The position numbers and the translations under genes were made by a program. The notes under the pieces were generated by a model. It searched no databases. It saw nothing but the letters and a program-made list of their open reading frames with translations, and was not told where the DNA came from. Positions 31,209 to 59,401 of a stretch of DNA of 64,000 nucleotides are shown here, piece after piece. The stretch is from Pontibacillus sp. HMF3514 (GTDB lineage: Bacteria; Bacillota; Bacilli; Bacillales; BH030062). The stretch spans positions 1,302,001-1,366,000 of the forward strand of contig NZ_CP047393.1 in the NCBI RefSeq assembly GCF_009858175.1, given 5' to 3'. The stretch's first letter is position 1. Each line of letters opens with the position of its first letter.

Positions 31209-31287
31209 ACTTTATAAAGTAGAACGATTTTCTTAATAGTTCAGAAATTTTTAAAGTGATCAACCAAACAGCTACATAACTTCACCG

Positions 31288-31321
31288 ATACTCAGAGCTT
31301 AATAAGCTCTGAGTATTTTTT
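31288..31321 (+). terminator. Terminator
   Basis: ATACTCAGAGCTTA and its complement flank a two-base loop and are followed by six T, downstream of the chemoreceptor gene. Confidence 0.9.
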
Positions 31322-31442: not shown

Positions 31443-32636
31443 GTGTCCTATGCTTCAAAACAAGTTCAAAGCTTACCGCCTTATTTGTTTTCGGTATTCC
31501 ATGAAAAAAAGAAACGCCTGCAAGCTAAAGGTGTAGATGTAATTGACCTTGGAATTGGTGCACCTGACTTACCGACACCGGAATTTATTGTGGAACGGCT
31601 CAAAAGCGAAGCGATTAAACCTGAGAATCACAAATATGCTCCTTATGCAGGTACACAAGCGTTCAGAGAAGCAGTTGCGGCTTTTTATCAAAAGCAGTAT
31701 AACGTCAAACTGGATCCAAACAAGGAAGTCCTGACACTGATTGGTTCTAAAGAGGGCATAGCTCACATGATGTATGCAGTGATTGATCCCGGTGATGGCG
31801 TTCTCATTCCTGACCCAGGTTATCCCGTTTATGATTCCGCAGTCCATCTGGCAAATGGAAAAGGCATACCGTTACCGCTCGATCCTGACAGAGGGTACGT
31901 TCCTATGTTTGATCTAATGGATAAAAGAGAGCTCAAAAAAGCTAAGCTCATGCTCTTAAACTATCCAAGCAATCCAACTGGTGCGACTGTGGAGATGGAT
32001 ACGTTTTTAGAAGCTGTTTTATTCGCAAAGAAGCATAACTTATGTATCGCCCAAGATGCAGCTTATGGATTAGTAACATTTGATGATTACCAAGCTCCAA
32101 GTATCCTGCAAGTTCCAGGCGCGAAAGAGGTTGCTGTGGAATTTGGATCCTTGTCAAAGAGCTTTAATATGACAGGTTGGCGGATCGGTTATGTGGTTGG
32201 AAACGAGGAGATCATTCGAGCATTGTCTATTGTAAAAAGCAATATGGATACAGGCCAGTTTTTGCCAATTCAAAAAGCTGGTGTAACAGCATTACAAAGT
32301 GATTTTTCAGCTGTACGAAATAACAATGACATTTATCAAAAGCGAATGGAAACCATGTTAGAGGCCTTATGGGACATGGGGATTCAAGCTGAAAAGCCAA
32401 GAGGGACATTTTTCATTTGGGCGAAGGTGCCTGGACAGGAATCATCCAAAGCGTTCGCTGAAAAGATGCTAGAGGAAGCTGGCGTCATTATAACCCCTGG
32501 TACAGCTTTTGGTGAGCAAGGTGAAGGATTTTTCCGCATTTCACTGTCTGTTCCTACTAAACGATTAAGTGAAGCGGTACAACGAATGAAAACGTTCCAA
32601 GCAGGAGGGCGCCTAGATGATTCCAAAAAAACGTAA
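31443..32636 (+). CDS. Class I/II PLP aminotransferase, candidate 2-aminoadipate aminotransferase
   Basis: The GTG start follows GGGGTGACGGATC. The 397-residue fold-type I aminotransferase has the PLP lysine in SLSKSFNMTGWRIGY (about residue 238), NYPSNPTGA and the C-terminal arginine segment FFRISLSVP. By sequence alone it could be named LL-diaminopimelate or aspartate aminotransferase-like. Its operon partners suggest otherwise: it is followed by a ThDP decarboxylase-type enzyme, an aldehyde dehydrogenase and lysine 6-dehydrogenase. The inferred role is conversion of 2-aminoadipate to 2-oxoadipate in lysine breakdown. The next gene starts 20 bases before its stop. Confidence 0.88.
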   Translation: MSYASKQVQSLPPYLFSVFHEKKKRLQAKGVDVIDLGIGAPDLPTPEFIVERLKSEAIKPENHKYAPYAGTQAFREAVAAFYQKQYNVKLDPNKEVLTLIGSKEGIAHMMYAVIDPGDGVLIPDPGYPVYDSAVHLANGKGIPLPLDPDRGYVPMFDLMDKRELKKAKLMLLNYPSNPTGATVEMDTFLEAVLFAKKHNLCIAQDAAYGLVTFDDYQAPSILQVPGAKEVAVEFGSLSKSFNMTGWRIGYVVGNEEIIRALSIVKSNMDTGQFLPIQKAGVTALQSDFSAVRNNNDIYQKRMETMLEALWDMGIQAEKPRGTFFIWAKVPGQESSKAFAEKMLEEAGVIITPGTAFGEQGEGFFRISLSVPTKRLSEAVQRMKTFQAGGRLDDSKKT

Positions 32637-34266
32637 TATGCAAAGTGGAGCTAAAGCGATTGTCGAGTGCATGAAACGAGAATCTGTTTCGCATGTCTTT
32701 TGTGTGCCAGGCGAGAGTTATTTGCCTGTGCTTGATGCCATTCATGATGAGGAATCCATAACACTTATTTCAGCGAGACATGAGGGTGGCGCGTCATTCA
32801 TGGCTGAGGGCTTCGCCAAAGCGAGTGGAAAACCTGGAGTTGTGATGGCGACGCGTGGTGTTGGAGGATCAAATTTGACGATTGGAGTTCATACCGCCTA
32901 TCAGGACTCGACGCCAATGGTGGTTTTTCTAGGTCAAGTTCATCGAGATTTCAGGGGACGAGAAGGGTTTCAAGAGATCGATCTTGATCAGTATTTCAAC
33001 CATATTGCCAAGTGGACCGTTGAAATCCAAGATGCCAAACGGGTTCCTGAACTTGTACAAAGAGCGTTTCGAATTGCTCAGACAGGTCGACCAGGCCCAG
33101 TAGTTGTTTCGCTACCTGAGGATATGCTTGTAGAGGAAGCGGAAATGACTTTTGGAAAACCTGTGAAAAAACCTTCACCACGTCCTTCTGCAAAAGAAAT
33201 CGAAGAGATTGAGTCCCTATTACATCAGGCTGAACGTCCTCTTATTATCGCTGGTGGTGGAGTGCAGCGGTCACGAGCGGAGTTAAGTCTTTGGGGATTT
33301 GCTACAAAATATGAAATTCCTGTGATGGCAGCCTTTCGAAGGCATGATGTGTTTCCTAATAATAATGAGCATTATGTCGGACACCTTGGGCTTAGCACAC
33401 ATGCAAACATTTTAAAAACAGTGGAAAAAGCAGACACAATTTTAGCTTTCGGTACACGCTTATCAGAGGTCACCACGCAGGACTACTCGATTATCAAAGA
33501 CGATCATAAACTCATTCATGTAGACATCGATTATGAAACCATCGGTAATGTGTATGCACCTGATGTGGGTGTCGTAGCTGATTTAAAAGAAGGATTGCAG
33601 GCACTTTCAAAAATAAATGTCATGAATAGGTGGAGTGAATGGCGGAAAGAAACGCGAAGAGCGTACGAGGATGCGACGACCATTGACTCGGAATCCTTAA
33701 ACCAAAATGTGATTGCTTCCTTGCAAAAGATTTTACCTGAAGAATCGGTGTTAACGAATGATGCAGGGAATTTTGCTGGATGGCTCCATTCTTTTTATCA
33801 ATTCAGGAAAAAGAACTCGTATGTCGGACCAACTTCTGGTGCGATGGGATATGGAATGCCAGCAGCTCTGGGAGTTAAGCTGGCTCGACCAGAACGAACC
33901 GTTGTGTCCCTATCTGGGGATGGTGGATTTATGATGACGATGCAAGAACTGGAGACAGCTGTACGATGCAATATCCCAATCATTAGTTTGGTTTTTAACA
34001 ACCGAATGTACGGAACGATTCGCATGCATCAGGAAATTCATTACCCAACCAAAACCATTGGTACCGATTTAGGAAATGTTCAATTTTCAGAGATAGCAAA
34101 AGGAATGGGAGTTCGAGGTTTTTATGTGAGATCAATTGAGGAATTTGAAGAGGCATTAACAGAAGCCATGAATTGTGGAGTGGCTTCAGTTATCGAAATT
34201 GAAACAGATCCTGAACAAATTTCTGTTTCATCAACGATTCAACAAATGCGAGACAAACATAGATAA
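32617..34266 (+). CDS. ThDP-dependent enzyme, candidate 2-oxoadipate decarboxylase
   Basis: The 549-residue protein has the three-domain ThDP fold. The catalytic glutamate lies in SARHEGGAS (Glu56), and the GDG...NN cofactor motif begins at SGDGGFMM (about 433) and ends in VFNN. It resembles acetolactate synthase large subunits, but the usual small-subunit gene is absent. Its neighbours are lysine-degradation enzymes. The inferred reaction is decarboxylation of 2-oxoadipate to glutarate semialdehyde. Acetolactate or benzoylformate-type chemistry cannot be excluded. The start sits in the end of the aminotransferase gene behind AGGAGGGCG. Confidence 0.88.
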   Translation: MIPKKRNMQSGAKAIVECMKRESVSHVFCVPGESYLPVLDAIHDEESITLISARHEGGASFMAEGFAKASGKPGVVMATRGVGGSNLTIGVHTAYQDSTPMVVFLGQVHRDFRGREGFQEIDLDQYFNHIAKWTVEIQDAKRVPELVQRAFRIAQTGRPGPVVVSLPEDMLVEEAEMTFGKPVKKPSPRPSAKEIEEIESLLHQAERPLIIAGGGVQRSRAELSLWGFATKYEIPVMAAFRRHDVFPNNNEHYVGHLGLSTHANILKTVEKADTILAFGTRLSEVTTQDYSIIKDDHKLIHVDIDYETIGNVYAPDVGVVADLKEGLQALSKINVMNRWSEWRKETRRAYEDATTIDSESLNQNVIASLQKILPEESVLTNDAGNFAGWLHSFYQFRKKNSYVGPTSGAMGYGMPAALGVKLARPERTVVSLSGDGGFMMTMQELETAVRCNIPIISLVFNNRMYGTIRMHQEIHYPTKTIGTDLGNVQFSEIAKGMGVRGFYVRSIEEFEEALTEAMNCGVASVIEIETDPEQISVSSTIQQMRDKHR

Positions 34267-34287
34267 CCAATTAAGGAGGTTACTTAA

Positions 34288-35790
34288 ATGCCAAAAACAC
34301 TCATTAAAGTGGAAAAGTTGAAGAATTACATTAATGGGGAGTGGGTGAATTCTGCAAGTGATCAATACGCATCTGTCACAAACCCTGCTACGTTAGAGTC
34401 TCTTGTCCAGGTTCCGTTATCAAGTGCAGGGGATGTGGATCAAGCTGTTCAGGTAGCCAAAAAAGCTCAAAAATCTTGGGCTCTTGTACCTGCCCCTCAA
34501 CGAGCAGAAGTCTTATACCGTGTAGGCTTATTGATGAAGGAGAGAAAAGAGGATCTTGCTCAAATTTTAACGATGGAAAATGGGAAAGTAATCGAGGAAG
34601 CGCGTGGGGAGGTACAAGAAGGAATTGATATGGCATTTTACATGGCTGGAGAAGGGCGTCGCTTGTTTGGACAGACGACACCTTCAGAACTAAAAGATAA
34701 ATTCGCCATGAGTGTTCGTTCTCCAGTTGGTGTGGTGGGGATTATTACCCCATGGAATTTCCCTATCGCTATTGCGACATGGAAGTCCTTTCCAGCTATT
34801 GTGGCGGGCAATACGGTGATTTGGAAGCCAGCAACAGAAACGCCTTTAATGGCCTATGAACTGACAAAAATATTTGAAGAAGCAGGACTGCCAAAAGGGG
34901 TTCTAAACCTTGTATTAGGATCAGGTTCAACAGTTGGAGATGCCATGGTAGAACATGATGATATCCGCGTGATTTCCTTTACGGGATCCAATGATGTTGG
35001 CCGAAATATTGCTGGGAAGTGTGGGCAAAAGTTAAAGAAGGTCTCGCTCGAGATGGGTGGAAAAAACGCCATTACGGTTATGGATGATGCAGATCTATCC
35101 TTAGCTGTTGAAGGTATTCTGTGGAGTGCTTTTGGAACGAGTGGGCAGCGTTGTACGGCGTGCAGTCGTGTTATCGTTCATGAGGATATAAAAGAGAGAT
35201 TAGAAGAGCAACTTCTAAATGAGATGGCGAAGCTTACGATTGGAAACGGTTTGGATGAATCGGTTAAAGTAGGTCCCATTATTAATAAAGCTGGACTTGA
35301 AAAGATAGAAGAATATATGGAAATCGGAAAGAAAGAAGGAGCAAAACTGCTTGCGGGTGGCTACGTTTTGAATGAAGGAAAACATGCAAATGGTTATTAC
35401 TTTGCGCCAACCTTATTCACAGATGCCACATCTGACATGCGTATAGCTCAGGAAGAGATTTTCGGGCCTGTAGTGTCACTTATTCCAGTGAAGTCTTTTG
35501 AGGAAGCAATTGAGGTGAATAATGGGGTGGAATATGGTCTATCGAGTTCCATTTTTACAAGGGATGTGAACAAAGTTTTTGCTGCGCAACGTGATTTAGA
35601 TACAGGAATTGTCTATGTTAATGCTGGGACAATCGGTGCTGAAATCCATCTTCCTTTTGGCGGAACAAAAGGAACAGGGAACGGCCATCGTGATTCTGGT
35701 GTAGCGGCACTTGATGTGTTTACGGAATGGAAGGCGGTCTATGTAGACTACAGCGGAAAGTTACAACGCGCTCAAATTGACGTTGAGTAA
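34288..35790 (+). CDS. Aldehyde dehydrogenase, candidate aminoadipate/glutarate semialdehyde dehydrogenase
   Basis: The 500-residue NAD(P)-dependent aldehyde dehydrogenase has [10 protein letters not shown], the general-base glutamate in SLEMGGKN (about 255) and the catalytic cysteine in TSGQRCTAC (about 288). The C-terminal segment is [17 protein letters not shown], a form seen in semialdehyde dehydrogenases of the oxovalerate/aminoadipate type. Lying between the ThDP enzyme and lysine 6-dehydrogenase genes, it could oxidise 2-aminoadipate 6-semialdehyde to 2-aminoadipate, and also glutarate semialdehyde to glutarate. The ATG follows TTAAGGAGGTTACTTAA, a very strong site. Confidence 0.9.
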
Positions 35791-35821
35791 GGGGAGTCTA
35801 TCAGGGTAAGGGGGAATTCGC

Positions 35822-36976
35822 ATGAAAGTAGCGGTACTAGGTTCAGGACTGATGGGAAAAGAGGCTGCACGTGATTTAGTGCAAAGCTCAGGAGTGAAAG
35901 AGGTAGGCTTAGCTGATATTGAACTTTCGAGGGCAGAGAATGTTTGTCAGCAGCTTGGATCTTCTAAAATTCAAGCTTATAAAGTGGATGCAGGCGATGC
36001 CAATGATCTTGCTCAATTTTTGAGTAGGTTCGACGTTGTCATTAATGCCTTGTTCTATTCGTTTAATGAGATTGTAGCGGAAACAGCCATAAAGGTTGGG
36101 ATCAGCTCCGTCGATTTAGGCGGTCATATTGGTCATGTGACTGATAATGTTTTGAACATGCATGATCAAGCGAAAGCAGCTGGGGTGACCGTGATACCAG
36201 ATTTAGGTGTAGCCCCTGGAATGATCAACATCCTATCTGGTTATGGTGTCAGCAAGCTTGATCAGCCTCATTCTATTAAGCTTTATGTTGGAGGAATTCC
36301 TGTAAAACCAGATCCACCACTTGAGTACAATCACGTCTTTTCTATGGAAGGCTTACTTGATCACTATACAGACCCATCTACCATTATTCGAAATGGCAAA
36401 GAACAACAAGTACCATCTTTATCCGAGATAGAGCGCTTGTATTTTGAAAAGTTCGGTCCTCTAGAGTCGTTTCACACTTCAGGCGGAACTTCGACATTAC
36501 CTAAATCCTATCCTTACTTAGATACGTTAGAGTATAAAACGATTCGTTACCCAGGCCATGCGGATAAAATGCGACTATTAGTAGATTTGAACCTTACCCG
36601 AAATGATTACGAAATTGAGCTCGATGGTAGAAAAGTAAAACCTCGCGAAGTGTTGTTAAAGACGATTGACCCGATTGTGGAGTTAAAAGATAAAGATGAT
36701 GCAGTACTCTTACGTGTAATGGTTGCTGGGAAGAAGAACGGAGCACAAACATCATATACGTACGAGATGGTTACTTATAAAGATCGTGTCAACAGTGTAA
36801 CAGCAATGGCAAGGGCAACAGCCAACACTATTTCAGTCGTTGCACAAATGATCGGAAGCGGTGCGATTACAAAAAGAGGTGTTCATCCTCCAGAAAATAT
36901 TGTTCCTGGTGCACTTTATATTGAAGAGATGGGGAAACGTGGAGTGAAGATCTTGGAGTCAAGTTCGACGGAATAA
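35822..36976 (+). CDS. lysDH: L-lysine 6-dehydrogenase
   Basis: The 384-residue saccharopine-dehydrogenase-like protein has an N-terminal Rossmann motif ([15 protein letters not shown]). Long stretches agree with my memory of the Geobacillus stearothermophilus lysine 6-dehydrogenase, among them [54 protein letters not shown] and [10 protein letters not shown]. That enzyme (EC 1.4.1.18) oxidatively deaminates the epsilon amino group of lysine with NAD to give 2-aminoadipate 6-semialdehyde/piperideine-6-carboxylate. The ATG follows AAGGGGGAATTCGC, and the gene closes a four-gene operon ending in a terminator at 36986. The agreement is recalled, not computed, but it is extensive. Confidence 0.9.
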
Positions 36977-36985
36977 ATTGTAGTT

Positions 36986-37018
36986 AAGGAAACTGTCAAA
37001 AGCGGCAGTTTCCTTTTT
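36986..37018 (+). terminator. Terminator of the lysine-degradation operon
   Basis: AAGGAAACTG at 36986-36995 pairs perfectly with CAGTTTCCTT at 37006-37015, followed by T residues. Confidence 0.88.
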
Positions 37019-37019
37019 A

Positions 37020-37456
37020 ATTTTTATCATTTCGATTTAAAGCTATGAAGATTACATTCTAGTAGAGATGAAAAGAGACAAAGATTATAAAGATCATCCT
37101 ATTCACCTAAGTAACATTAAAGGACATACGACTAAAGTCTCGCTTGTGAAGAGTAGAAAAAAGTCGGTTACTCCATAATGAGTGATCGATTTTTTATTTT
37201 AACGAATTACAGTGTTAATATAAAACGGTAAAAAAATAGGAATGAAACGGTTGCAAATATAAAGATGAGAGAGCTTTATTTTTTATGAGATGGTATGAGG
37301 ATCATATAACTCTTCATGTAACCGCTTTCCTTCGATTTTTCGTATATTTCCGCATGACTTCCTTGAAAGCCCTTGCTTAAAAACAACGGTTTGTTATGAT
37401 TAACAACGTTGCAAAATAATCCGAACGTTACAAACGAACAGGAGCGTGCATACATC
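37020..37456. other. Long leader upstream of the proline operon
   Basis: This 437-base AT-rich stretch precedes proC. It holds the candidate promoter at 37373-37400. I looked for a T-box (no GGGTGGTACCGCG-like element) and for a terminator-antiterminator pair and saw neither. An osmotically controlled promoter, as for proHJ in B. subtilis and proHJA in Halobacillus, is possible but not provable from sequence. Confidence 0.4.
37373..37400 (+). promoter_or_regulatory. Candidate sigma-A promoter of the proline operon
   Basis: TTGCTT at 37373-37378 and TATGAT at 37395-37400 are separated by 16 bases, 57 bases before the proposed proC start. Confidence 0.5.
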
Positions 37457-38287
37457 GTGAATCAAACAATTGCTTTTCTAGGAGCCGGATCGATGGCTGA
37501 GGCGATGATCTCAGGTATTGTTCAATCTGGTAAACTATCACCAAAGAAAATTATCGTCAGTAACAAAAGCAATCACAACCGTTTACAAGAATTAAAAGTG
37601 AAATATGGAATTAAAGCTATCAGTCGTGATCAATTAGATTATGAATCCATTGACCTATTCATTTTGGCTATGAAACCAAAGGATATTGATTATGTACTTG
37701 ATCATCTTCAAAGTAAAGTGAAACCCGAACAGTTATTGGTTTCTGTCCTAGCAGGAATCTCCACATCCTACATTGAGGAATATCTACCGCAACAACAGGT
37801 GATTCGAGTCATGCCGAATACATCAAGTATGATTAGTGAATCGTCTACCGCTATATCTCCAGGAACTTATACACCAGAACAACGAGTAGACACTGTGAAA
37901 TCCTTGATGGAATGCATCGGGGAAGCTTATGTAATTGATGAATCAAACATGGATATTTTTACAGGAATCGCAGGAAGCGGTCCAGCGTATTTTTATAATC
38001 TTATGGAACATATTGAGGAAGCAGGTGTTGAAGGCGGGTTAGACCGTGAAACAGCTCGTAGCATTGCAGCTCAAACCATTCTTGGTGCTGGAAAAATGAT
38101 GCTCGAACAAGATGACACCCCAACAGAACTCAGAAAGAAAGTAACATCTCCGAATGGAACAACTGCAGCAGGTCTTGATGCCTTAAATGCTCATGGTGGA
38201 GGCGAAGCTCTATCCGAAGCTGTAAAAGGCGCTGCAAAGAGATCCAAAGAGATTAGTGAGCAAATGAAGCCACTTGTCCATTCATAA
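37457..38287 (+). CDS. proC: Pyrroline-5-carboxylate reductase
   Basis: From GTG 37457 the 276-residue protein begins MNQTIAFLGAGSMAEAM, a Rossmann NAD(P)H motif at the very N-terminus as in all ProC enzymes. An in-frame start at 37409 would add 16 residues of unlikely sequence. The ProC signature region GSGPAYFYNLMEHI and the C-terminal TSPNGTTAAGLDAL are present. It reduces pyrroline-5-carboxylate to proline. Gene order proC-proB-proA equals the proHJA operon of Halobacillus halophilus, used there for proline as a compatible solute, so an osmotic role is likely. GGAG lies 12 bases upstream of the start. Confidence 0.95.
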   Translation: MNQTIAFLGAGSMAEAMISGIVQSGKLSPKKIIVSNKSNHNRLQELKVKYGIKAISRDQLDYESIDLFILAMKPKDIDYVLDHLQSKVKPEQLLVSVLAGISTSYIEEYLPQQQVIRVMPNTSSMISESSTAISPGTYTPEQRVDTVKSLMECIGEAYVIDESNMDIFTGIAGSGPAYFYNLMEHIEEAGVEGGLDRETARSIAAQTILGAGKMMLEQDDTPTELRKKVTSPNGTTAAGLDALNAHGGGEALSEAVKGAAKRSKEISEQMKPLVHS

Positions 38288-38352
38288 AACAAGATAATCA
38301 ACTATACAAATGAAACGTACAACGATATAAACGTGAAACTAGGAGTGAGCGA

Positions 38353-39486
38353 GTGGTACCTGATACCGATAAGAAACGCATTGTTATTAAAATTGGAAGT
38401 AGTTCTTTAACGAGCTTACAAGGTGAAATTAGTCGTCGAAAGCTTGAAAAACTAGTAGATGAAGTGGTTCGATTAAAAGATGAAGGGCATGAAGTGTTGC
38501 TTGTATCATCTGGAGCTGTTGCTGCAGGATATCGTCGACTTGGCTGTTTATCTCGACCAAGTTCATTACCAGAAAAGCAGGCAGCGGCATCTATTGGTCA
38601 GGGACTTCTAATTGAATCTTATTCAGACCTCTTTTTATCCCATGGCTATGTAGCCTCTCAAATCCTCATCACCCGCAGTGATTTTTCTGATGAGAATCGA
38701 TATAATAACGCTCGAAATACGATCAATGTTCTTCTAGAGCGTGGAATCATCCCAATCGTGAACGAGAATGATACCATCACGATGGACTTTTTAAAGTTCG
38801 GTGATAACGACACACTTTCTGCCAAAGTCGCAGGGTTAGTGGATGCTGATCAGCTCATTATTTTATCCGACATTGAAGGACTGTATAATGACAATCCATC
38901 AGAAAACCCTGATGCAAAGCTGATTACACAGGTGCAAGAAATTACACCTGAAATTGAAGCTGTAGCAGGAGATCCAGGAAGCGCTGTAGGTACAGGGGGC
39001 ATGCGATCCAAAATTGATGCCTTTAAAATCGCCATGGCGTCTGGAATTTCATCTTTCTTAGGAAAAGCAAGCAACCCTGACATCGTCTATAAAGCAGCTC
39101 ATAACGAAGCGGTGGGGACGTACTTTTCTTCAAATGTCGAGTCGAATAACCTGGATCAGAAACAACAATGGATTGCGTTTAACTCAGGTCCTGAGGGTGA
39201 TGTGATTGTTGATGCCTCTACTGTGGAGACAGTGATTGAAGCTAAAGAAAGCCTTCAACCGGAAAACGTCCATAGCGTTAAAGGCGATTTTGATGAAGGC
39301 GCTGTGGTCCGCATCCTTGATCTTGAAGGGGAAGAGGTCGGCCTTGGCGTAGTCAATTATTCTTCAGAAACGTTTAAGCAAATTAAAGAATCGGAAAGTA
39401 AAGATCTTGAACAATACCAACAAGCTGCTGTTGAAAGTGATGACCTTGTATGTCATCTTGAAATCTCTATTCCAATTGGAGTTTAA
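38353..39486 (+). CDS. proB: Glutamate 5-kinase with PUA domain
   Basis: The GTG start at 38353 follows AGGAGTGAGCGA. The 377-residue protein has the amino-acid kinase domain (IVIKIGSSSLT at the N-terminus, LLVSSGAVAAGY, IVNENDTI, GTGGMRSKIDAF). A C-terminal PUA domain covers about 280-360. It phosphorylates glutamate at the gamma carboxyl, the committed step of proline synthesis. The length equals full ProB/ProJ enzymes. In osmotic (ProJ-type) enzymes proline feedback is weak, which cannot be judged from sequence. Confidence 0.95.
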   Translation: MVPDTDKKRIVIKIGSSSLTSLQGEISRRKLEKLVDEVVRLKDEGHEVLLVSSGAVAAGYRRLGCLSRPSSLPEKQAAASIGQGLLIESYSDLFLSHGYVASQILITRSDFSDENRYNNARNTINVLLERGIIPIVNENDTITMDFLKFGDNDTLSAKVAGLVDADQLIILSDIEGLYNDNPSENPDAKLITQVQEITPEIEAVAGDPGSAVGTGGMRSKIDAFKIAMASGISSFLGKASNPDIVYKAAHNEAVGTYFSSNVESNNLDQKQQWIAFNSGPEGDVIVDASTVETVIEAKESLQPENVHSVKGDFDEGAVVRILDLEGEEVGLGVVNYSSETFKQIKESESKDLEQYQQAAVESDDLVCHLEISIPIGV

Positions 39487-39504
39487 ATTTTAAAGGAGGA
39501 TTGG

Positions 39505-40761
39505 ATGCTAACAACAAACGTAAACGTTGAAAAGCAAGCCATAGAAGCGAAGAAAGCATCGAAAAAACTATCTGTATTATCAACAGAAGAGAAAAATGAA
39601 GCTCTTATTACGCTAGCCAAAACATTAGAAACGAACTACGAAACCATCTTGAAAGCAAATGAAGAGGATTTAGCAAAAGGTCGCGAAAAAGGCTATGAAG
39701 ATGCCTTTATGGATCGTCTGGCTCTTTCTAAGGAACGTGTTTTTGAATTTGCTCAAGGGTTACGCGATGTAGCTGAACTTGAGGATCCAACTGGTCAGGT
39801 TCATTCGCAATGGGAGCTAGACAATGGGTTAGATGTCAAGCAGGTAGCCGTACCATTAGGTGTGATCGGCATGATTTATGAAGCACGCCCAAATGTAACA
39901 GTCGATGCGACAGGCCTAGCTTTAAAATCCGGTAATGCAATCATCTTAAAAGGTGGCTCTTCAGCCATCACATCCAACAAAGCCATTGTGGATGTGATGA
40001 AGCAAGGGTTAGAAGAAACGAAAATTCCAACTGATGCAATTCAGTTTATTGATAGTACAGACCGAAAAGCCACACAAGAATTGTTCACAATGAAAGAGCA
40101 TGTAGATGTTCTTATCCCTCGTGGAGGCGGCTCTCTCATTAAAGCTGTAGTCGATAATGCGACTGTTCCTGTATTAGAAACAGGGGTAGGGAATTGTCAT
40201 ATTTACATCGATGAACATGCTGATGTAGAAAAGGCTCTCAATATTTTGGTCAATGCTAAAACCGATCGTCCGGCTGTGTGTAACGCAGCTGAAACCGTGA
40301 TTATTCATAAAGCATGGTTAGATGCCCATAAAGATGAGTTGTATGAAACATTGCAAAAGCATGAGATCTCCACACATGGTGATGATTTTGCTCAGGAAGC
40401 AATCCCAGGTACGGAACCAGCTGGTGAGCAAGATTGGGGCAGTGAATATCTGAGTAAAGATATCGCCGTAAAAACCGTTTCAGATGTACTGGAGGCAATT
40501 GAACATATTGAAACGTACGGCACGAAACACTCTGAAGCGATTGTAACGGAGAGCGAGAAAAATGCAGATACATTTATGAAACTAGTAGATGCTGCAGCTC
40601 TTTATCATAATGCATCCACTCGATTTACGGATGGAGGAGCACTAGGCTTCGGTGCAGAAATCGGTATTTCCACACAAAAACTTCATGCAAGAGGACCTAT
40701 GGGACTCCCAGCCTTAACGACTGTAAAATATATGATGAGTGGAAATGGACAAATTCGATAG
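39505..40761 (+). CDS. proA: Glutamate-5-semialdehyde dehydrogenase
   Basis: The 418-residue gamma-glutamyl phosphate reductase shows GVIGMIYEARPNVT, the conserved VLIPRGGGSLI, and the catalytic cysteine in RPAVCNAAE (about 257). C-terminal FGAEIGISTQKLHARGPMG is diagnostic for ProA. It converts gamma-glutamyl phosphate to glutamate semialdehyde. ATG follows AAAGGAGGATTGG. It is the last gene of the operon; the terminator follows at 40774. Confidence 0.96.
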   Translation: MLTTNVNVEKQAIEAKKASKKLSVLSTEEKNEALITLAKTLETNYETILKANEEDLAKGREKGYEDAFMDRLALSKERVFEFAQGLRDVAELEDPTGQVHSQWELDNGLDVKQVAVPLGVIGMIYEARPNVTVDATGLALKSGNAIILKGGSSAITSNKAIVDVMKQGLEETKIPTDAIQFIDSTDRKATQELFTMKEHVDVLIPRGGGSLIKAVVDNATVPVLETGVGNCHIYIDEHADVEKALNILVNAKTDRPAVCNAAETVIIHKAWLDAHKDELYETLQKHEISTHGDDFAQEAIPGTEPAGEQDWGSEYLSKDIAVKTVSDVLEAIEHIETYGTKHSEAIVTESEKNADTFMKLVDAAALYHNASTRFTDGGALGFGAEIGISTQKLHARGPMGLPALTTVKYMMSGNGQIR

Positions 40762-40773
40762 AACAAGAGGAAG

Positions 40774-40809
40774 GCATGCTCAGATCTGAAATCTGGGCAT
40801 GTTTTTTTT
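40774..40809 (+). terminator. Terminator of the proline operon
   Basis: CATGCTCAGAT near 40775 pairs with ATCTGGGCATG near 40791, and eight T follow. Confidence 0.83.
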
Positions 40810-40892
40810 ATGGGATTAATTGGTTAGTTAGTTACGTTCTCATAGGGTGGGCATATGATGGTGGTGTGTATATTTAATAAGGAGATGAGTAC

Positions 40893-41765
40893 ATGTACTT
40901 TGGACCCGGAACGTATCAATATTACGTTCAACAGCCAAATGGTATGCCACGAAATCATCAAGGAGTAGATGAGCAAATCTGTGAAGCAATTCGCTCTAGC
41001 ATTAGTAGAGAAGCATCATCCATGGATCTTTATCATCGATTAGCGGATATGGCACCAGATCAAAACCATCAACACCACATTCTTCAGTCATTCGAAAACA
41101 AAAGAGCTCACTTAAACCAATTTACTGATTTATATGTAAACCTAACAGGAACACAGCCAACGTATCAAATCGAGCAAGTACCTTTCCACAGTTACCAAGA
41201 AGGGCTACAAAGAGCTTATGAAGCAGAAGTAGCGGGGTATGAAGAGTATCAAAATAGCCTTTTACTTACTCAACACCCATTTGTTCAACAAGTTTTTCAC
41301 TGGGCTCTGAATGGGGAGAGTGATAACGCAACAAGACTCGGAAACCTGAATCGAGAAGCAAGAAAAGATTATGGTGGAGAACCGTATGTTGTTAATATTG
41401 AAAAAGCAACGGTTAAAAATAAAAATTTTCGAAAGGCGATCTGGACGGGTGAACATTATCAAGTGACTTTGATGAGCATTCAACCCGGAGAAGACGTTGG
41501 ATTAGAAATTCATCCGGATGTGGATCAATTCCTCCGTATCGAGCAAGGGCAAGGCCTCGTTCAAATGGGAGATCGAAAAAACAACCTCACCTACGAAAAG
41601 AAAGTAAAGGACAACTATGCGATCATGGTTCCTGCTGGTAAATGGCATAACCTAACCAATACAGGAGATAAGCCATTGAAGCTGTATTCTATCTATGCTC
41701 CACCTGAGCATCCTAAGGGTACAGTTCACAGAACAAAAGCAGAGGCTATGGCTGGGGAAGAGTAG
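40893..41765 (+). CDS. Helical (ferritin-like) plus cupin fusion protein
   Basis: The 290-residue product has two parts. Residues about 1-150 form a long-helix bundle with many His, Glu and Gln, resembling a ferritin-like fold (AIRSSISREASSMDLYHRLADM, with FENKRAHL). Residues about 165-285 form a cupin with the first metal-binding segment LEIHPDVDQFLRIEQGQG and the second PAGKWHNLTNTG, ending YAPPEHPKGTVHRTKAEA. Stand-alone cupins of this exact type are common in Firmicutes; the helical extension is not. Function unknown. ATG follows AAGGAGATGAGTAC. It is a single gene. Confidence 0.82.
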   Translation: MYFGPGTYQYYVQQPNGMPRNHQGVDEQICEAIRSSISREASSMDLYHRLADMAPDQNHQHHILQSFENKRAHLNQFTDLYVNLTGTQPTYQIEQVPFHSYQEGLQRAYEAEVAGYEEYQNSLLLTQHPFVQQVFHWALNGESDNATRLGNLNREARKDYGGEPYVVNIEKATVKNKNFRKAIWTGEHYQVTLMSIQPGEDVGLEIHPDVDQFLRIEQGQGLVQMGDRKNNLTYEKKVKDNYAIMVPAGKWHNLTNTGDKPLKLYSIYAPPEHPKGTVHRTKAEAMAGEE

Positions 41766-41779
41766 CATTGAAGATAAAG

Positions 41780-41814
41780 AGAGCATTTCCTTAATAAGAG
41801 AATGCTCTTTTTTG
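41780..41814 (+). terminator. Terminator of the cupin-fusion gene
   Basis: AGAGCATT at 41780-41787 pairs with AATGCTCT at 41801-41808, followed by T residues. Confidence 0.82.
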
Positions 41815-41883
41815 TTTTCTTTGCAGGGATAGAGAAAGAGAGGGTAGAAAAGTTTAAAGAGAAAATTCGAAGGAGAGAAAGCC

Positions 41884-41931
41884 ATGATGTTTCCGGTACT
41901 AATCGGAATGGAAGGCTCTTGGGAAGAGTAA
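41884..41931 (+). CDS. Possible 15-residue peptide
   Basis: A 15-codon frame (MMFPVLIGMEGSWEE) starts at 41884, with AAGGAGAG eleven bases upstream. It is very short and the spacing is long. It could be a leader peptide or chance. No promoter is evident. Confidence 0.2.
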   Translation: MMFPVLIGMEGSWEE

Positions 41932-42004
41932 CAATGATATAAAAAAAGCGATCTTAAGTAAGTGGGAACCTAATAAGATGGCTTTATCTGCTTGGGGTTA
42001 TAGA

Positions 42005-42180
42005 GTTCCGCGCAGAAGCGTCAGGGCTCCACACGAAAACGGGGGAGCTCCGCACGAAAGTGGGATAGCTCCGCACGAAAGTGGAAGGGCTCCGCACGAA
42101 AGCGAGAGAGAGCCGCACTAAAGCTGAAGAGCTCCACACATAAGTGCTAAAGCTCCACCCAAAAACTCTAAGCCCTACCG
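42005..42180. repeat. 21-bp degenerate tandem repeat array, about 8.5 units
   Basis: The head GCTCC (or a near match) recurs at 42005, 42026, 42047, 42068, 42089, 42110, 42131, 42152 and 42173, every step being exactly 21 bases. The best units read about agctccgcacgaaagtggga. The array sits between the cupin-fusion gene and the convergent transporter gene. Confidence 0.85.
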
Positions 42181-42183
42181 AAT

Positions 42184-42801
42184 CTATTTAAAAATCCCAA
42201 ATGGCTTACCTACTGGAAGCGTCACTTTACCGAAGTGTGTATTTAACACGCTTGCTGCTGAGCCATAGAAACTAAAGATGGCAATGAGAAATTCGGATAT
42301 TGCAGCAACTTTATGCATAGCTTCTGGTGCGAAACCTAAAGTGGATAAAGAGAGTCCTATAAATAGAAAATCTATGAGAACGAAAATAATGAACAATACT
42401 TTATGTGTCTCCATCGCACCGATTGTCATAAATAAGCTGAAAATTAAGTATCCAACAAATGCTATGCCGAGCTGTTTAGGATCGACTGCAGCTGCAGCTT
42501 CTTTACCAAAAACACCAAATTGGATTAACCATGAAGTTCCGACACCAAACCAAAATAGGCCAAAAGCTCCAAAAGCAGTAGTTCCGAATGTGTTATTGTG
42601 TTTTGCATCTTGAATGCTTGCAAAAAGCTGAGCTAGTCCACCTAGGAAAAGTGCCCAAGGAATGACAAAAGAAACACCGTCTGTCCAACCGAGTTTTGCG
42701 GAAGAAGCGACAAGCGTTACCATTGCTAGACCAAACAGACCTAATGAGGAAGGGTCAGCTGTTGAAATTTGAATGCGTTGTGTATTTTGTTGTTGATTCA
42801 T
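42184..42801 (-). CDS. GPR1/FUN34/YaaH (AceTr) family transporter
   Basis: The 205-residue membrane protein has about six helices, the N-terminal family motif near DPSSLGLFGLA (usually NPAPLGL) and FGTTAFGAFGLFWFG in the second helix region. Members such as SatP carry acetate or succinate with protons. The first motif deviates (Pro to Ser twice), so specificity may differ. ATG 42801 follows AGGAGGTATCATC. It is a single gene, divergent from the SRPBCC gene. Confidence 0.9.
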   Translation of the reverse strand: MNQQQNTQRIQISTADPSSLGLFGLAMVTLVASSAKLGWTDGVSFVIPWALFLGGLAQLFASIQDAKHNNTFGTTAFGAFGLFWFGVGTSWLIQFGVFGKEAAAAVDPKQLGIAFVGYLIFSLFMTIGAMETHKVLFIIFVLIDFLFIGLSLSTLGFAPEAMHKVAAISEFLIAIFSFYGSAASVLNTHFGKVTLPVGKPFGIFK

Positions 42802-42926
42802 GATGATACCTCCTATAAAACATACCTTCCTAATTTACATAAGAAAAGGATTCCGTGCAATACATTTTTAGATGTAAGCATTATTTTCATAAATTCTTTA
42901 AAATAAAGAGAAGAAGGAGTAAAAAA

Positions 42927-43391
42927 ATGCCTGTTATCGAACTTGAAATGTATATTCATGCTTCTATCGAAACGTGCTTTGATCTTGCTAGACATGTAGA
43001 TACGCATACTGAAACAACCAAGAATACACAGGAGAAAGCTATAGATGGTGTGACAAGTGGTCTGATGGAAGAGGGGGACTGGGTGACGTGGGAAGCTATT
43101 CATTTTGGGATTAAACAACAACTTACAGCCAAAATCACAGAAATGAACAAGCCTTATCAATTTACTGATGTCATGGTGAAAGGTGCTTTTCACTCATTTA
43201 CGCATATCCATGAATTTGTAAGAAGTGGTTCAGGAACAATTATGAAAGACCGCTTTGCATATAAATCCCCATTTGGTTTTTTGGGGATGGTAGCAGATAA
43301 ATTATTCTTAGAAAATTATATGAAAAAACTGCTTAAAGTAAGAGCTTATGAATTAAAAAGAATCGCAGAAGACCAAGAAGAGTGGTGGTAA
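42927..43391 (+). CDS. SRPBCC-family protein
   Basis: I begin this gene at ATG 42927 (GAAGGAGT upstream). An in-frame start at 42855 would add 24 residues of basic sequence without a site. The 154-residue product has the helix-grip pattern of SRPBCC/Bet v 1 proteins (IHASIETCFDLARHVDTHTE, then alternating beta strands, then a long C-terminal helix). Such proteins bind hydrophobic ligands. The annotation of relatives as cell-division inhibitors is by family only. Function unknown. Confidence 0.82.
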   Translation: MPVIELEMYIHASIETCFDLARHVDTHTETTKNTQEKAIDGVTSGLMEEGDWVTWEAIHFGIKQQLTAKITEMNKPYQFTDVMVKGAFHSFTHIHEFVRSGSGTIMKDRFAYKSPFGFLGMVADKLFLENYMKKLLKVRAYELKRIAEDQEEWW

Positions 43392-43452
43392 ATGAAATAC
43401 GCTCGTATTGGGCAGTGAAATAGATTGGGTTAAGTGGAAAGGAGATTCCCAG

Positions 43453-43737
43453 ATGGTTCTTTATATCATAGCTATATCCATTATCATTGGCAGTTGGTAT
43501 CTGTTTAGTAAAAGAATTAAAAAGAAAAAATCAACCCTCATCTTTAGTCTCATCATGGTTGGTGTACCCGTGTTTTTTCATATATTTGGAATGGTCTATT
43601 CATCTATCGTTCATAATCAAAGTATAGGATTTACCTCCGCTTACTTAATGTCTGTACTTTATATCAATAGTTTAATTATGCTCATTGTTCATTACTCTTT
43701 AGGTATGAAACGAAGGAAGGGCAAGAGGGGAAGCTAA
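43453..43737 (+). CDS. Small polytopic membrane protein
   Basis: ATG 43453 follows AAAGGAGATTCCCAG and gives 94 residues with three hydrophobic helices and a basic tail (RRKGKRGS). An in-frame TTG at 43408 would add 15 residues but has no site. It is 61 bases downstream of the SRPBCC gene and probably co-transcribed. No family recognised. Confidence 0.65.
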   Translation: MVLYIIAISIIIGSWYLFSKRIKKKKSTLIFSLIMVGVPVFFHIFGMVYSSIVHNQSIGFTSAYLMSVLYINSLIMLIVHYSLGMKRRKGKRGS

Positions 43738-43762
43738 TATGCAAGTGATGAGGTAGAAGTAT

Positions 43763-44004
43763 GTGAAGAACACCCTTGGAATAGTGAGGAAGTTTGGGTG
43801 AAAAGTGAAGAACACCCTTGGAATAGTGAGGAAGTTTGGGTGAAAAGTGAAGAACGGCCCTGGAATAGTGATGAAGATTGGTGAAGAAGTGAAGGACGGC
43901 TCCATATTAGTGAGGAAGCTAGGGCAATAAGTGAAGAACCCCTCCAGATTAGTGAGGAAGTTATGTAAATAAGTGAAGAACTGCCTTCGATTAGTGAAGA
44001 AATA
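43763..44004. repeat. 21-bp degenerate tandem repeat array, 12 units with 42-bp superperiod
   Basis: GTGA heads occur at 43763 and at every 21st base to 43994 (12 units) with no slip. Two unit types alternate: one like gtgaagaacacccttggaat, the other like gtgaggaagtttgggtgaaa. This gives a 42-base superperiod. The first four units are two near-identical 42-mers; later units are more diverged. It lies between the small membrane protein gene and the terminator of the acyl-CoA dehydrogenase gene. Confidence 0.9.
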
Positions 44005-44020
44005 AAACAATATATACCAA

Positions 44021-44069
44021 ATAAAAAAACAACCAAGCCCAGACAAAAAATAGATTGAGCTTGGTTGTT
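44021..44069 (-). terminator. Terminator of the glutaryl-CoA dehydrogenase-like gene
   Basis: AACAACCAAGC at 44028-44038 pairs with GCTTGGTTGTT at 44059-44069. On the minus strand a run of T follows. Confidence 0.85.
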
Positions 44070-44080
44070 CATTTAAAAAC

Positions 44081-45271
44081 TCATTCAAACGGCCACTCGG
44101 GCAACATCCGATTCAACTGCTTATCCTTCCGATACCCCAACACATACTCAGCCTGCATCACCGTATGAATTTCTCGCGTACCTTCGTATATTACGGGTGC
44201 TTTGGAGTTGCGTAGATAACGTTCAACTGGATATTCGTTTGAGTATCCATACGCACCATGGATTTGCACAGCATCATCTGCAGCCTGGTTAGCATAATCA
44301 CAAGCTTGCCACTTGGCTAGGGAAGTCTCGCGTGTATTTCGTTTTCCATCATTTTTTAATTCACCTGCTCGGTACACAAGAAGACGGCTCATTTGAAGTC
44401 CAGCTTCCATTTTCGCAATCATTTGTTGAACAAGCTGATGTTTGCCAATCTCTTTTCCGAATGTTTTGCGTTCGTGGCAGTAGTCCACGCTAGCTTCTAA
44501 GCATGCCATTATCTGTCCGCAAGCTCCAGCAGCTACTGTGAAGCGGCCGTTATCGAGAGCAGACATTGCAATTTTAAACCCCTCGCCTTCTTCACCAAGT
44601 AAATTTTCTTTCGGAACCTTTACATCGTCAAAAAATAATTCACCTGTGTTACCAGCACGTATGCCTAATTTTCCTTTAGTAGCTTTAGAGGAGAAGCCAG
44701 GATACGTACGCTCCACAATGAAAGCAGAGATCCCGTGATGTTTTTTGTCCTTATCGGTATAAGCAAACACTAAAAAATGATCAGCTGTATCACATAAGGA
44801 AATCCACGTCTTTTGTCCATTTAATACATAAAAATCCCCATCTCGGTTAGCCGTGGTTTGAAGAGCGGCAACATCAGAACCAGCGCCAGGTTCAGTAAGT
44901 CCAAATGCTCCAACTTTCTCACCTTTCGCCTGTGGAATTAAATACTTTTGCTTCTGTTCTTCTGATCCCCATTGCAAAAGGGTCATGGAATTTAAACCCG
45001 TATGTACGGAAACAGCGGTTCGAAAAGCTGTATCCCCTCGCTCTAGCTCCTCACACACGATTGCTAATGAGTTGTAATCCATCCCACTTCCGCCATATTG
45101 AGTTGGAATGCAGACACCCATTAAGCCCAAGTTCGCCAGTTTATCGAGGATACTCGTGTCAAAGTGACCTTTCTCATCCCACTCAGCAATGTTCGGCATA
45201 ATTTCTTTATCCACAAAATCTCGCACGGTTTTTCTCAGCATATTTTGTTCATCGGTAAATTCGAAGTCCAT
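44081..45271 (-). CDS. gcdH: Acyl-CoA dehydrogenase, glutaryl-CoA dehydrogenase-like
   Basis: The 396-residue FAD-dependent acyl-CoA dehydrogenase has FGLTEPGAGSDV, NGQKTWIS and the catalytic base in PVIYEGTREIH (Glu363), matching the TYEGT(H)DIH position of glutaryl-CoA dehydrogenases. Arg84 in AFRTAVSVH corresponds to the Arg of GCDH (YRSAMSV) that binds the substrate gamma-carboxylate; general acyl-CoA dehydrogenases lack it. The next gene upstream on this strand is a glutarate-type CoA-transferase, 11 bases away. Glutaryl-CoA to crotonyl-CoA plus CO2 is the likely reaction; a non-decarboxylating enzyme remains possible. ATG follows AAGGAGTGTTTGC. Confidence 0.85.
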   Translation of the reverse strand: MDFEFTDEQNMLRKTVRDFVDKEIMPNIAEWDEKGHFDTSILDKLANLGLMGVCIPTQYGGSGMDYNSLAIVCEELERGDTAFRTAVSVHTGLNSMTLLQWGSEEQKQKYLIPQAKGEKVGAFGLTEPGAGSDVAALQTTANRDGDFYVLNGQKTWISLCDTADHFLVFAYTDKDKKHHGISAFIVERTYPGFSSKATKGKLGIRAGNTGELFFDDVKVPKENLLGEEGEGFKIAMSALDNGRFTVAAGACGQIMACLEASVDYCHERKTFGKEIGKHQLVQQMIAKMEAGLQMSRLLVYRAGELKNDGKRNTRETSLAKWQACDYANQAADDAVQIHGAYGYSNEYPVERYLRNSKAPVIYEGTREIHTVMQAEYVLGYRKDKQLNRMLPEWPFE

Positions 45272-45282
45272 GCAAACACTCC

Positions 45283-46470
45283 TTAAATCGTTTTATTTTT
45301 CCTTAACTCATGTACTTCTTTTTCTGTATAGCCAATTCCTTGTAGAATCTCATCTGTATGTTCTCCAGGTTCAGGTGGGTGGTACTTTACGTTGACTGGT
45401 GTTCTAGAAAGCTTAAGAGGACTACCGATCATATTTATGGAACCTGCCTTAGGATGTTTAAAGGGAGTGAACATGTTTCTTGCTTGAAGTTGTGGGTCTT
45501 TTCCAAGTTCATCTATAGTCTGGATCGGTCCAAAAGGAATACCGGCTGAATGACACTCTTCTTTCCAGTGGTCCGTCGAATACATTCGAAATGCTTTTTG
45601 GAGGACAGCTACTAATTCCTCCCGATTTTCTACGCGATTAGGGTTTGTACGAAAACGATCATTGCTTGCAAGTTCAGGCATACCGATTACATGACAAAGA
45701 CTCTGAAACTGCCGATCGTTTCCGACAGCAATGACCATCTCCCCATCTTTTGTCGAAAAGGTTTGATAGGGAACAATGTTAGCGTGATGGTTCCCTAGAC
45801 GATCAGGGACTTTCCCTGACATTAGATAATTGCTGCCGATATTGATGAGGGAGGAGACGGCTGAATCATAGAGGGAGAGATCAATTTTTTGACCTATCCC
45901 TGATTGAGTTCTCTCCAGCAGAGCTCCTTGGATCCCGATACATGCATACAGTCCCGTTAAAATATCCGTTATGGCAACACCGACTTTCTGGGGACCTGAT
46001 TCCTCGTTTCCAGTAATACTCATCAACCCGCTCATAGCTTGAATGATAAAATCATAGCCTGGTAGATGCTTGTAAGGACCTGTTTCACCAAAGCCAGTAA
46101 TGGAACAGAAAATGATACGAGGATTAAGCTTATTTAAGGAATCATAATCCAGACCAAAGCGTTCCATCGTACCCGATTTGAAGTTATGAATAACCACATC
46201 GCTCTCAGCGACTAATTTCTTGATTATGTCCTGTCCTTTTTCAGATTTCAAATCAACAGTGAGGCTCTTTTTATTCCGATTCGCACAAATATAGTAAGCA
46301 CTAACTCCCTCTTGAAAAGGAGGTCCCCATTTTCTAGTATCATCACTTCCGCCTGGTGCTTCCACCTTAATAACATCAGCACCAAGGTCTCCAAGGATCA
46401 TAGAACAGTAGGGACCAGCCAAAACTCTTGTTAAGTCAAGGACACGGATTCCTTGTAACGAAGCAGTCAA
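45283..46470 (-). CDS. CaiB/BaiF CoA-transferase, SUGCT-like (succinyl-CoA:glutarate)
   Basis: The 395-residue type III CoA-transferase has LDLTRVLAGPYCSMILGDLG at its start, DDTRKWGPPF, and the catalytic aspartate in GVAITDILTGLYA (Asp169). These stretches closely resemble human SUGCT (DLTRVLAGP, GDLGAEVIKVE, DDTRTWGPPF, CSITGYGQTGP), which moves CoA to glutarate. With a glutaryl-CoA dehydrogenase-like gene 11 bases downstream, glutarate activation is the likely role. TTG start at 46470 follows AAGGAGCGTGATGAG. Other dicarboxylates, such as succinate or itaconate, cannot be excluded. Confidence 0.87.
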   Translation of the reverse strand: MTASLQGIRVLDLTRVLAGPYCSMILGDLGADVIKVEAPGGSDDTRKWGPPFQEGVSAYYICANRNKKSLTVDLKSEKGQDIIKKLVAESDVVIHNFKSGTMERFGLDYDSLNKLNPRIIFCSITGFGETGPYKHLPGYDFIIQAMSGLMSITGNEESGPQKVGVAITDILTGLYACIGIQGALLERTQSGIGQKIDLSLYDSAVSSLINIGSNYLMSGKVPDRLGNHHANIVPYQTFSTKDGEMVIAVGNDRQFQSLCHVIGMPELASNDRFRTNPNRVENREELVAVLQKAFRMYSTDHWKEECHSAGIPFGPIQTIDELGKDPQLQARNMFTPFKHPKAGSINMIGSPLKLSRTPVNVKYHPPEPGEHTDEILQGIGYTEKEVHELRKNKTI

Positions 46471-46671: not shown

Positions 46672-46725
46672 CACTGAAGAAAGAAAGTTAGAATGAGGAT
46701 AACTTACAAACAAGGGGTACTAAAA

Positions 46726-47952: not shown

Positions 47953-47997
47953 AAAGATTTATGCTAGCTGAATACTTGATAAAGAGAGGGTGACATC

Positions 47998-49756: not shown

Positions 49757-49783
49757 CATTCGTCTTCTTTATTTTCACACCTA

Positions 49784-49797
49784 TGAAAACGCATTCA
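49784..49797. promoter_or_regulatory. Candidate cre (CcpA) site before the sugar-binding protein
   Basis: TGAAAACGCATTCA matches the consensus TGWAARCGYTWNCW at 13 of 14 positions on either strand. It lies in the 114-base gap between the permease genes and the binding-protein gene, suggesting an internal, catabolite-controlled promoter. Confidence 0.5.
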
Positions 49798-49870
49798 ATA
49801 TGGTGGTTAACCAATCTAATGTTGGTTTTTCATAAGGAATTTTATCAATTTATTAGGGGAGGAATTATTA

Positions 49871-59157: not shown

Positions 59158-59198
59158 ATGAAACAATACTTTTTACAAACAAAATAACGAATAAGAAA

Positions 59199-59380: not shown

Positions 59381-59401
59381 ATAGGAACAGGAGGTAACAC
59401 C

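Follow-up and report, generated by a model that had tools for sequence, protein, structure and literature searches.

A candidate lysine catabolic route through free glutarate in a Pontibacillus gene cluster with a proposed stand-alone thiamine diphosphate decarboxylase

The gene cluster

The DNA analysed here is a stretch of 64,000 nucleotides (the window; C1:1302001-1366000) from the genome of Pontibacillus sp. HMF3514, which consists of one contig of 3,976,892 bases. Its subject is a set of six genes, lying in two tight blocks, which probably encode one route of lysine breakdown by way of free glutarate. An earlier note, made from the letters of the window, had located these genes and named their enzyme classes. 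All six open reading frames (ORFs) were found at the positions it gave, and the Pfam families agree with the classes. The genes, in window coordinates, are:

31443-32636, plus strand: aminotransferase, start codon GTG
32617-34266, plus strand: thiamine diphosphate (ThDP) enzyme, overlapping the aminotransferase gene by 20 bp
34288-35790, plus strand: aldehyde dehydrogenase (ALDHa), 21 bp after the ThDP gene
35822-36976, plus strand: lysine dehydrogenase (LysDH) of the saccharopine-dehydrogenase family, 31 bp after the ALDHa gene
44081-45271, minus strand: acyl-CoA dehydrogenase, the putative glutaryl-CoA dehydrogenase (GCDH)
45283-46470, minus strand: class III CoA-transferase (SUGCT-like), start codon TTG, 11 bp from the GCDH gene

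On the minus strand the CoA-transferase gene precedes that for the acyl-CoA dehydrogenase. The two blocks are on opposite strands and 7.1 kb apart.

Enzyme assignments

The LysDH ORF matched PF03435 and PF16653, and the solved structure 3abi at E 3.7e-37. For the characterised L-lysine 6-dehydrogenase of Geobacillus stearothermophilus (LysEDH), PMC6697735 names seven modelled pocket residues, V130, V172, F173, H181, Y238, T240 and R242. All seven are identical, with the same numbering, in the window enzyme, and they are kept in each of the 28 LysDH sequences aligned (window included). Residue for residue, then, the identification of 35822-36976 as an L-lysine 6-dehydrogenase with a complete 6-deaminating active site is supported. 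In that source LysEDH was studied as an isolated enzyme.

For the GCDH 26 sequences were aligned, two looser relatives (L126 and L142; L and G numbers are our handles for loci and genomes) being left out, and R84, S88 and E363 of the window protein are invariant among them. In the human enzyme R94 and S98 bind the distal carboxylate, and E370 is the catalytic Glu. The enzymes of Burkholderia and Desulfococcus have an Arg aligned with R84, and Gly occupies that site in 5ol2 and 4l1f (the source organisms of the compared PDB chains are those we presume). E77 and Y362 are also invariant; in the Desulfococcus enzyme their places are taken by Ala and Val. A Glu seven residues before the Arg, together with a Tyr before the catalytic Glu (human E87 and Y369), presumably marks the decarboxylating type. 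At the level of these residues the assignment passed, and 44081-45271 is proposed to encode a glutaryl-CoA dehydrogenase of the decarboxylating type.

The CoA-transferase belongs to the class III family (PF02515). The best of the seven NCBIfam families listed for it was NF052585, succinate-glutarate CoA-transferase, at 466.8 bits against a cut-off of 750. Its alignment with human SUGCT (9br6, E 1.6e-108) covers almost the full length, and the Asp of its GVAITD motif aligns with that of GVAMTD in the human protein, which we take to be the catalytic residue. We propose that it is a SUGCT-like succinyl-CoA:glutarate CoA-transferase, with succinyl-CoA as the putative donor.

The ThDP enzyme scored 746.8 bits with NF006052 (the PRK08199 subfamily), over the cut-off of 539, and fell under the cut-offs of the acetolactate synthase equivalogs (TIGR00118, 421.8 versus 538.35; TIGR02418, 314.7 versus 551.1). 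Seven further ThDP-family matches in the genome are distinct from it, the best being 34% identical. The nearest folds to its AlphaFold model (predicted local distance difference test score, pLDDT, 90.1) were acetohydroxyacid synthase, HKA synthase and glyoxylate carboligase; the fold search gives the general family of the modelled protein and does not fix its substrate. We propose that it would act as a 2-oxoadipate decarboxylase forming glutarate semialdehyde.

The aminotransferase is a class I protein resembling LL-DAP-aminotransferase (PF00155), with 2x5d and 6l1l as its nearest solved relatives. Its score exceeded the cut-off of NF006756 (PRK09276; 519.9 versus 507) and was below that of TIGR03540 (DapC_direct; 520.4 versus 593.25). 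From its place in the cluster it is proposed to be a 2-aminoadipate aminotransferase.

Co-occurrence in other genomes

Homologues were counted in a survey of 299 genomes of the order, for which the Fisher values are not corrected for relatedness. LysDH was present in 52 genomes, ThDP in 54, SUGCT in 67 and GCDH in 88. The SUGCT count takes matches of about 450 bits or more, which are found in 67 of the 93 genomes with matches; this threshold leaves out CoA-transferases of 46-47% identity that lie beside GCDH and ThDP (G043 and G236), as well as those in G148 and G231. LysDH matches of 33% identity (G016, G061 and second matches in G143 and G260) were excluded, and one GCDH was used where a genome had two matches. 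LysDH and ThDP occurred together in 43 genomes (Fisher p about 1e-32), LysDH and GCDH in 45 (about 1e-21), and ThDP and SUGCT in 45 (about 1e-27); 38 genomes had all four. By these figures the genes are associated beyond chance. When two genes were on the same contig they generally lay within 15 kb of each other (LysDH-ThDP 36/37, LysDH-GCDH 34/39, ThDP-GCDH 28/32). The earlier note had treated the two blocks as belonging together, to be given up if they did not co-occur elsewhere; they both co-occur and cluster.

From the survey results 40 loci (L104-L143) were picked and fetched, as a non-random sample. Twelve of them hold all six genes in one stretch, in various orders and strands and in seven families. 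A further 80 named loci were found with the ThDP profile; here our ORF calling overlooks some genes where the locus is GC-rich, and LysDH, GCDH, SUGCT and the aminotransferase were seen near ThDP in six of the 80 (Virgibacillus oceani, Lentibacillus halodurans, Thalassobacillus devorans, Halobacillus dabanensis, H. litoralis and Caenibacillus caldisaponilyticus). The tree built from these enzymes contains 72 ThDP proteins; of those labelled ThDP in the more distant named loci (from L175 on, except L206) it takes only the first 25.

ALDHa (PF00171) has its own pattern. An ALDHa-type gene is present in 23 of the 40 loci and LysDH is present in every one of these. The two are found together even where the locus has no ThDP gene (L120-L123, L125, L128 and L143), and the loci with ThDP and no LysDH among the 40 have another type of aldehyde dehydrogenase or none. 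Because ALDHa accompanies LysDH, even without ThDP, the pattern suggests that it serves the LysDH product. It is proposed to be a 2-aminoadipate 6-semialdehyde dehydrogenase which may also take glutarate semialdehyde. A separate gene resembling succinate-semialdehyde dehydrogenase (SSADH) is located near GCDH in 8 of the 40 loci; the L105 copy scored 616 bits with TIGR01780, below the cut-off of 646.35. The window lacks such a gene, and a 54%-identical relative is encoded elsewhere in the genome (C1:3467903-3469297, at 3.47 Mb). A second aldehyde dehydrogenase would thus be available.

Co-variation of the ThDP enzyme and SUGCT

A ThDP decarboxylase would yield glutarate semialdehyde and hence free glutarate, so a CoA-transferase would be needed; without the ThDP enzyme glutaryl-CoA must form directly, and the transferase would be dispensable. 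Among the 45 genomes with both LysDH and GCDH, 38 have ThDP and SUGCT, six have neither (G029, G064, G105, G121, G148 and G159), one has SUGCT alone (G019) and none has ThDP alone (Fisher 8.6e-7, phylogeny being ignored here and in the two tests below). This joint presence or absence backs the earlier suggestion that free glutarate explains the need for a CoA-transferase, and it fits a decarboxylase whose product must be re-activated. Both states occur within each of two families (f2 and f22) and, by the threshold used, within one genus (g83), where G244 has the two genes and G148 neither.

The layout in G121 reads GCDH, SSADH-like, IclR, LysDH, ALDHa, aminotransferase. This is the order in relatives such as G001 (L105) and in the family mates G055 and G009 (L106 and L107), except that no ThDP gene separates ALDHa from the aminotransferase (84 bp are left), SUGCT is missing before GCDH, and a DUF3870 gene is missing too. 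G121 is also without a permease and a class III aminotransferase, which only the family mates carry. In L119-L123, representing five of the six genomes with neither gene (G064 was not aligned), the glutaryl-binding residues of GCDH are all kept.

Possible replacements for the pair were sought in 14 genomes, G000 and the ThDP-minus ones included. Each gave one match to the E1 of 2-oxoglutarate dehydrogenase (E 1e-30 or better), and no second E1 of this type (DHTKD1-like) was found in any of the 14. Nor was 2-oxoacid:ferredoxin oxidoreductase enriched where ThDP and SUGCT are missing (2 of 6 genomes, versus 7 of 8 others). Neither candidate explains the swap. By elimination only, the bypass in these genomes might be replaced by the ordinary 2-oxoglutarate dehydrogenase.

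Proposed route and alternatives

In the route that we propose, LysDH would oxidatively deaminate the 6-amino group of lysine to give 2-aminoadipate semialdehyde, in equilibrium with the cyclic imine, which the aldehyde dehydrogenase at 34288-35790 would convert to 2-aminoadipate. The aminotransferase would then form 2-oxoadipate, and the ThDP enzyme would decarboxylate this non-oxidatively to glutarate semialdehyde. An aldehyde dehydrogenase would produce free glutarate; in the window genome this may be ALDHa again, or the SSADH-like enzyme at 3.47 Mb, and in some relatives it is probably the SSADH-like product encoded near GCDH. The CoA-transferase would activate glutarate with the CoA of succinyl-CoA, and the resulting glutaryl-CoA would be turned by GCDH into crotonyl-CoA and CO2. 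That the two blocks encode one such route, through free glutarate and with a stand-alone ThDP decarboxylase, is given a probability of roughly 0.7. The reading draws on gene content and layout, the conservation of the cluster, the active-site residues of LysDH and GCDH and the co-variation of ThDP with SUGCT; for the ThDP enzyme, the aminotransferase and the aldehyde dehydrogenases we infer the substrates, and for SUGCT the donor. The earlier note had arrived at this overall pathway, and at the level of genomics it is supported.

Several observations weigh against it. The co-variation tests take no account of phylogeny, and two members of the group with neither gene are weak: G148 has a 47%-identical CoA-transferase (413.6 bits) on another contig, and G064 is an assembly of 250 contigs in which the match to LysDH is broken by three in-frame stops. 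With G148 counted as SUGCT-positive the split becomes 38, 5 and 2 (Fisher 1.7e-5), and with G064 dropped too the value is 1.1e-4. Neither replacement candidate accounts for the swap, and the scheme does not explain why G121 retains its SSADH-like gene though ThDP and SUGCT are gone. In G047, G086 and G191 LysDH is accompanied by an unlinked ThDP homologue (on other contigs or 218 kb apart) and by neither SUGCT nor GCDH. In L163 (Oceanobacillus bengalensis) and L171 (Cytobacillus), both among the named loci, ThDP occurs with the aminotransferase and an ALDHa 80% and 70% identical to that of the window, and the fetched stretch contains no LysDH; since ALDHa is there beside ThDP without LysDH, a role on glutarate semialdehyde, and so a double role, is possible. 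The CoA-transferase is short of its family cut-off, as noted, and the GCDH gave 381.7 bits with NF045552 (GlutCoADH_Des), under the cut-off of 470. This last miss does not exclude a GCDH, because the model is taken to describe the non-decarboxylating kind of Desulfococcus. Finally, PRK08199-like ThDP enzymes are found in many other gene contexts, and the subfamily is therefore not tied to one substrate.

The loci L163 and L171 would also suit a pathway that starts at the other amino group, on the logic of the arginine transaminase pathway of Pseudomonas (AruH/AruI). The aminotransferase would deaminate lysine at the 2-position, the ThDP enzyme would convert 2-oxo-6-aminohexanoate to 5-aminopentanal and the aldehyde dehydrogenase would give 5-aminovalerate; a class III aminotransferase and an SSADH-like enzyme would then lead to glutarate for SUGCT and GCDH, with LysDH as a separate branch. 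Some clusters do add a class III aminotransferase, an amino-acid permease and an SSADH-like enzyme, and the class III protein of L113 is above the GABA-transaminase cut-off (TIGR00700, 620.5 versus 506.65). However, such an aminotransferase is absent from the window block and from nine of the 12 six-gene loci, the rest of those genomes not having been searched (L106 and L107 have one, and L108 a piece of 189 amino acids). ALDHa accompanies LysDH rather than ThDP in the 40 loci, and LysDH, in the same operon, has the full 6-deaminating active site. We consider this pathway unlikely.

It is distinctly unlikely, in our estimate, that the blocks are two unrelated units, with the plus-strand genes making 2-aminoadipate or pipecolate, as an osmolyte or for nitrogen salvage, and the minus-strand pair using glutarate of other origin. 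The separation and opposite strands of the blocks in the window genome would agree with this, as would the 26 genomes, of 65 with both SUGCT and GCDH, that have no LysDH, and a P5C-reductase-like gene does lie about 430 bp downstream of LysDH. Of the 40 fetched loci, though, G003 alone repeats that neighbourhood, and its adjacency was rejected as a link to pipecolate; the frequency with which LysDH and GCDH lie within 15 kb and the co-variation of ThDP with SUGCT also speak for a single unit. The remaining alternative makes the ThDP enzyme a carboligase, or lets it act on another 2-oxo acid in the manner of acetolactate synthase, its membership of the cluster being incidental. Its nearest folds and solved relatives (acetohydroxyacid synthase, glyoxylate carboligase and HKA synthase) are carboligases, but its distance from the other ThDP-family proteins of the genome and the way its presence tracks SUGCT make this very improbable.

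A wider form of the one-route proposal has, in our judgement, an even chance of being right. The PRK08199-type enzyme of these Bacillota would be a natural ThDP-dependent 2-oxoadipate decarboxylase, and with SUGCT it would form a bypass module leading from 2-oxoadipate by way of glutarate semialdehyde and free glutarate to glutaryl-CoA. This module would be gained or lost as a whole and would replace the oxoadipate dehydrogenase reaction; DUF3870 would be an accessory of the glutarate part.

Comparison with known systems

The mammalian saccharopine pathway employs AASS, AASADH, AADAT, the DHTKD1 complex and GCDH, and SUGCT acts on free glutarate. The proposed intermediates here are the same from 2-aminoadipate semialdehyde through 2-aminoadipate and 2-oxoadipate, and again at glutaryl-CoA and crotonyl-CoA, and there are homologues of SUGCT and GCDH. 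The route would differ in having no saccharopine step and in replacing the oxoadipate dehydrogenase complex by a non-oxidative ThDP decarboxylation, and SUGCT would be in the main line, whereas in mammals it serves salvage. The arginine pathway AruH-AruI-KauB, likened here from its general description rather than by sequences, has the same logic of aminotransferase, stand-alone ThDP decarboxylase and aldehyde dehydrogenase; the amino acid differs, and the pathway is not known to involve a lysine dehydrogenase, a CoA-transferase or an acyl-CoA dehydrogenase. Neither of two Pseudomonas loci looked at (L182 and L197) was identified as AruI.

Pseudomonas putida degrades lysine through 5-aminovalerate by DavBATD, whereas entry here would be by 6-dehydrogenation, 2-aminoadipate and the proposed ThDP decarboxylase. 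PMC5974017 and PMC6265302 give free glutarate as an intermediate of bacterial lysine breakdown in Pseudomonas and E. coli; in P. putida it is followed by a glutaryl-CoA branch or by CsiD/LhgO, and the free glutarate and the glutaryl-CoA branch are the features in common. PMC9437556 concerns the engineering of E. coli for aminoadipate production. In the open-access library searched no description was found of the whole route or of a 2-oxoadipate decarboxylase of this type. The cluster is probably a new combination of known enzyme families, and the activity of the ThDP enzyme is probably new. If the proposal is true, many Bacillota would have a complete route from lysine to crotonyl-CoA, and a ThDP subfamily that has so far carried only a generic name would acquire a substrate. 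Free glutarate, which is linked to disease in humans, would be on-pathway, its re-activation left to a CoA-transferase. The ThDP enzyme could serve in the production of glutarate or other five-carbon chemicals.

Variant clusters and accessory genes

Eleven of the 54 ThDP genomes have no LysDH; SUGCT is present in six of these and GCDH in eight. In G232 (L116) and Gottfriedia (L173) ThDP directly adjoins GCDH-SUGCT without LysDH, an arrangement which ties it to the glutaryl part independently of LysDH. An aldehyde dehydrogenase, a protein of the Glu/Leu/Phe/Val-dehydrogenase family and an amino-acid permease are also encoded there, and the same partners occur with ThDP in L141. These three variants may represent entry from 2-aminoadipate by a dehydrogenase in place of the aminotransferase. 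In several Alphaproteobacteria (for example L196, L208, L210, L212, L215 and L216) a CoA-transferase 46-48% identical to that of the window is encoded immediately upstream of a ThDP relative (41-43%), which suggests that the pairing may extend past the Bacillota.

A small protein with DUF3870 (PF12986, about 104 amino acids) recurs in the clusters (L105:6397-6717, L106:8699-9013, L156:15840-16157 and others). SUGCT and GCDH are present in all 11 of the loci bearing it among the 40 fetched and in all four of the named ones, and it was not seen in five loci without ThDP and SUGCT. The fold search with its model (pLDDT 83.8) gave no match under E 0.001; the top, weak match was IscU (E 3.9e-3).

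An IclR-family regulator is next to or near LysDH in 7 of the 40 loci (for example L105:6736-7494) and absent from the window cluster; it is a candidate regulator of the pathway. A transporter of the Na+/H+ antiporter family (PF03553), which we take to be a possible lysine carrier, flanks the cluster in L118 (8588-10171) and L128 (12911-14485).

Other features of the window

The four-gene block is bounded by two terminator-like hairpins:

31287-31317, plus strand: hairpin of 14 pairs plus a T-run, upstream of the block
36986-37015, plus strand: hairpin of 12 pairs plus a T-run, right after the LysDH gene

As a class such motifs are in slight excess only (7 observed, 4.8 +/- 2.0 in shuffles). 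Between the blocks are genes with P5C reductase (proC-like), amino-acid kinase/PUA (proB-like) and aldehyde-dehydrogenase-family (proA-like) domains, a spacer found again solely in G003 among the 40 loci, together with a cupin protein, a GPR1/FUN34/YaaH transporter, small ORFs and a gene that weakly matches a polyketide cyclase, short of the Pfam cut-off. No lysine riboswitch reached the gathering threshold in the window or in nine cluster loci of the 40. A purine riboswitch (84 bits) was found at 59183-59284, just 5' of an adenine-deaminase-like ORF at 59363-61153. Beside SUGCT, at 46693-51133, are a ROK-family protein and then ORFs resembling, by eye, two ABC sugar permeases and a substrate-binding protein, and these look like a sugar-uptake unit unrelated to the lysine cluster.

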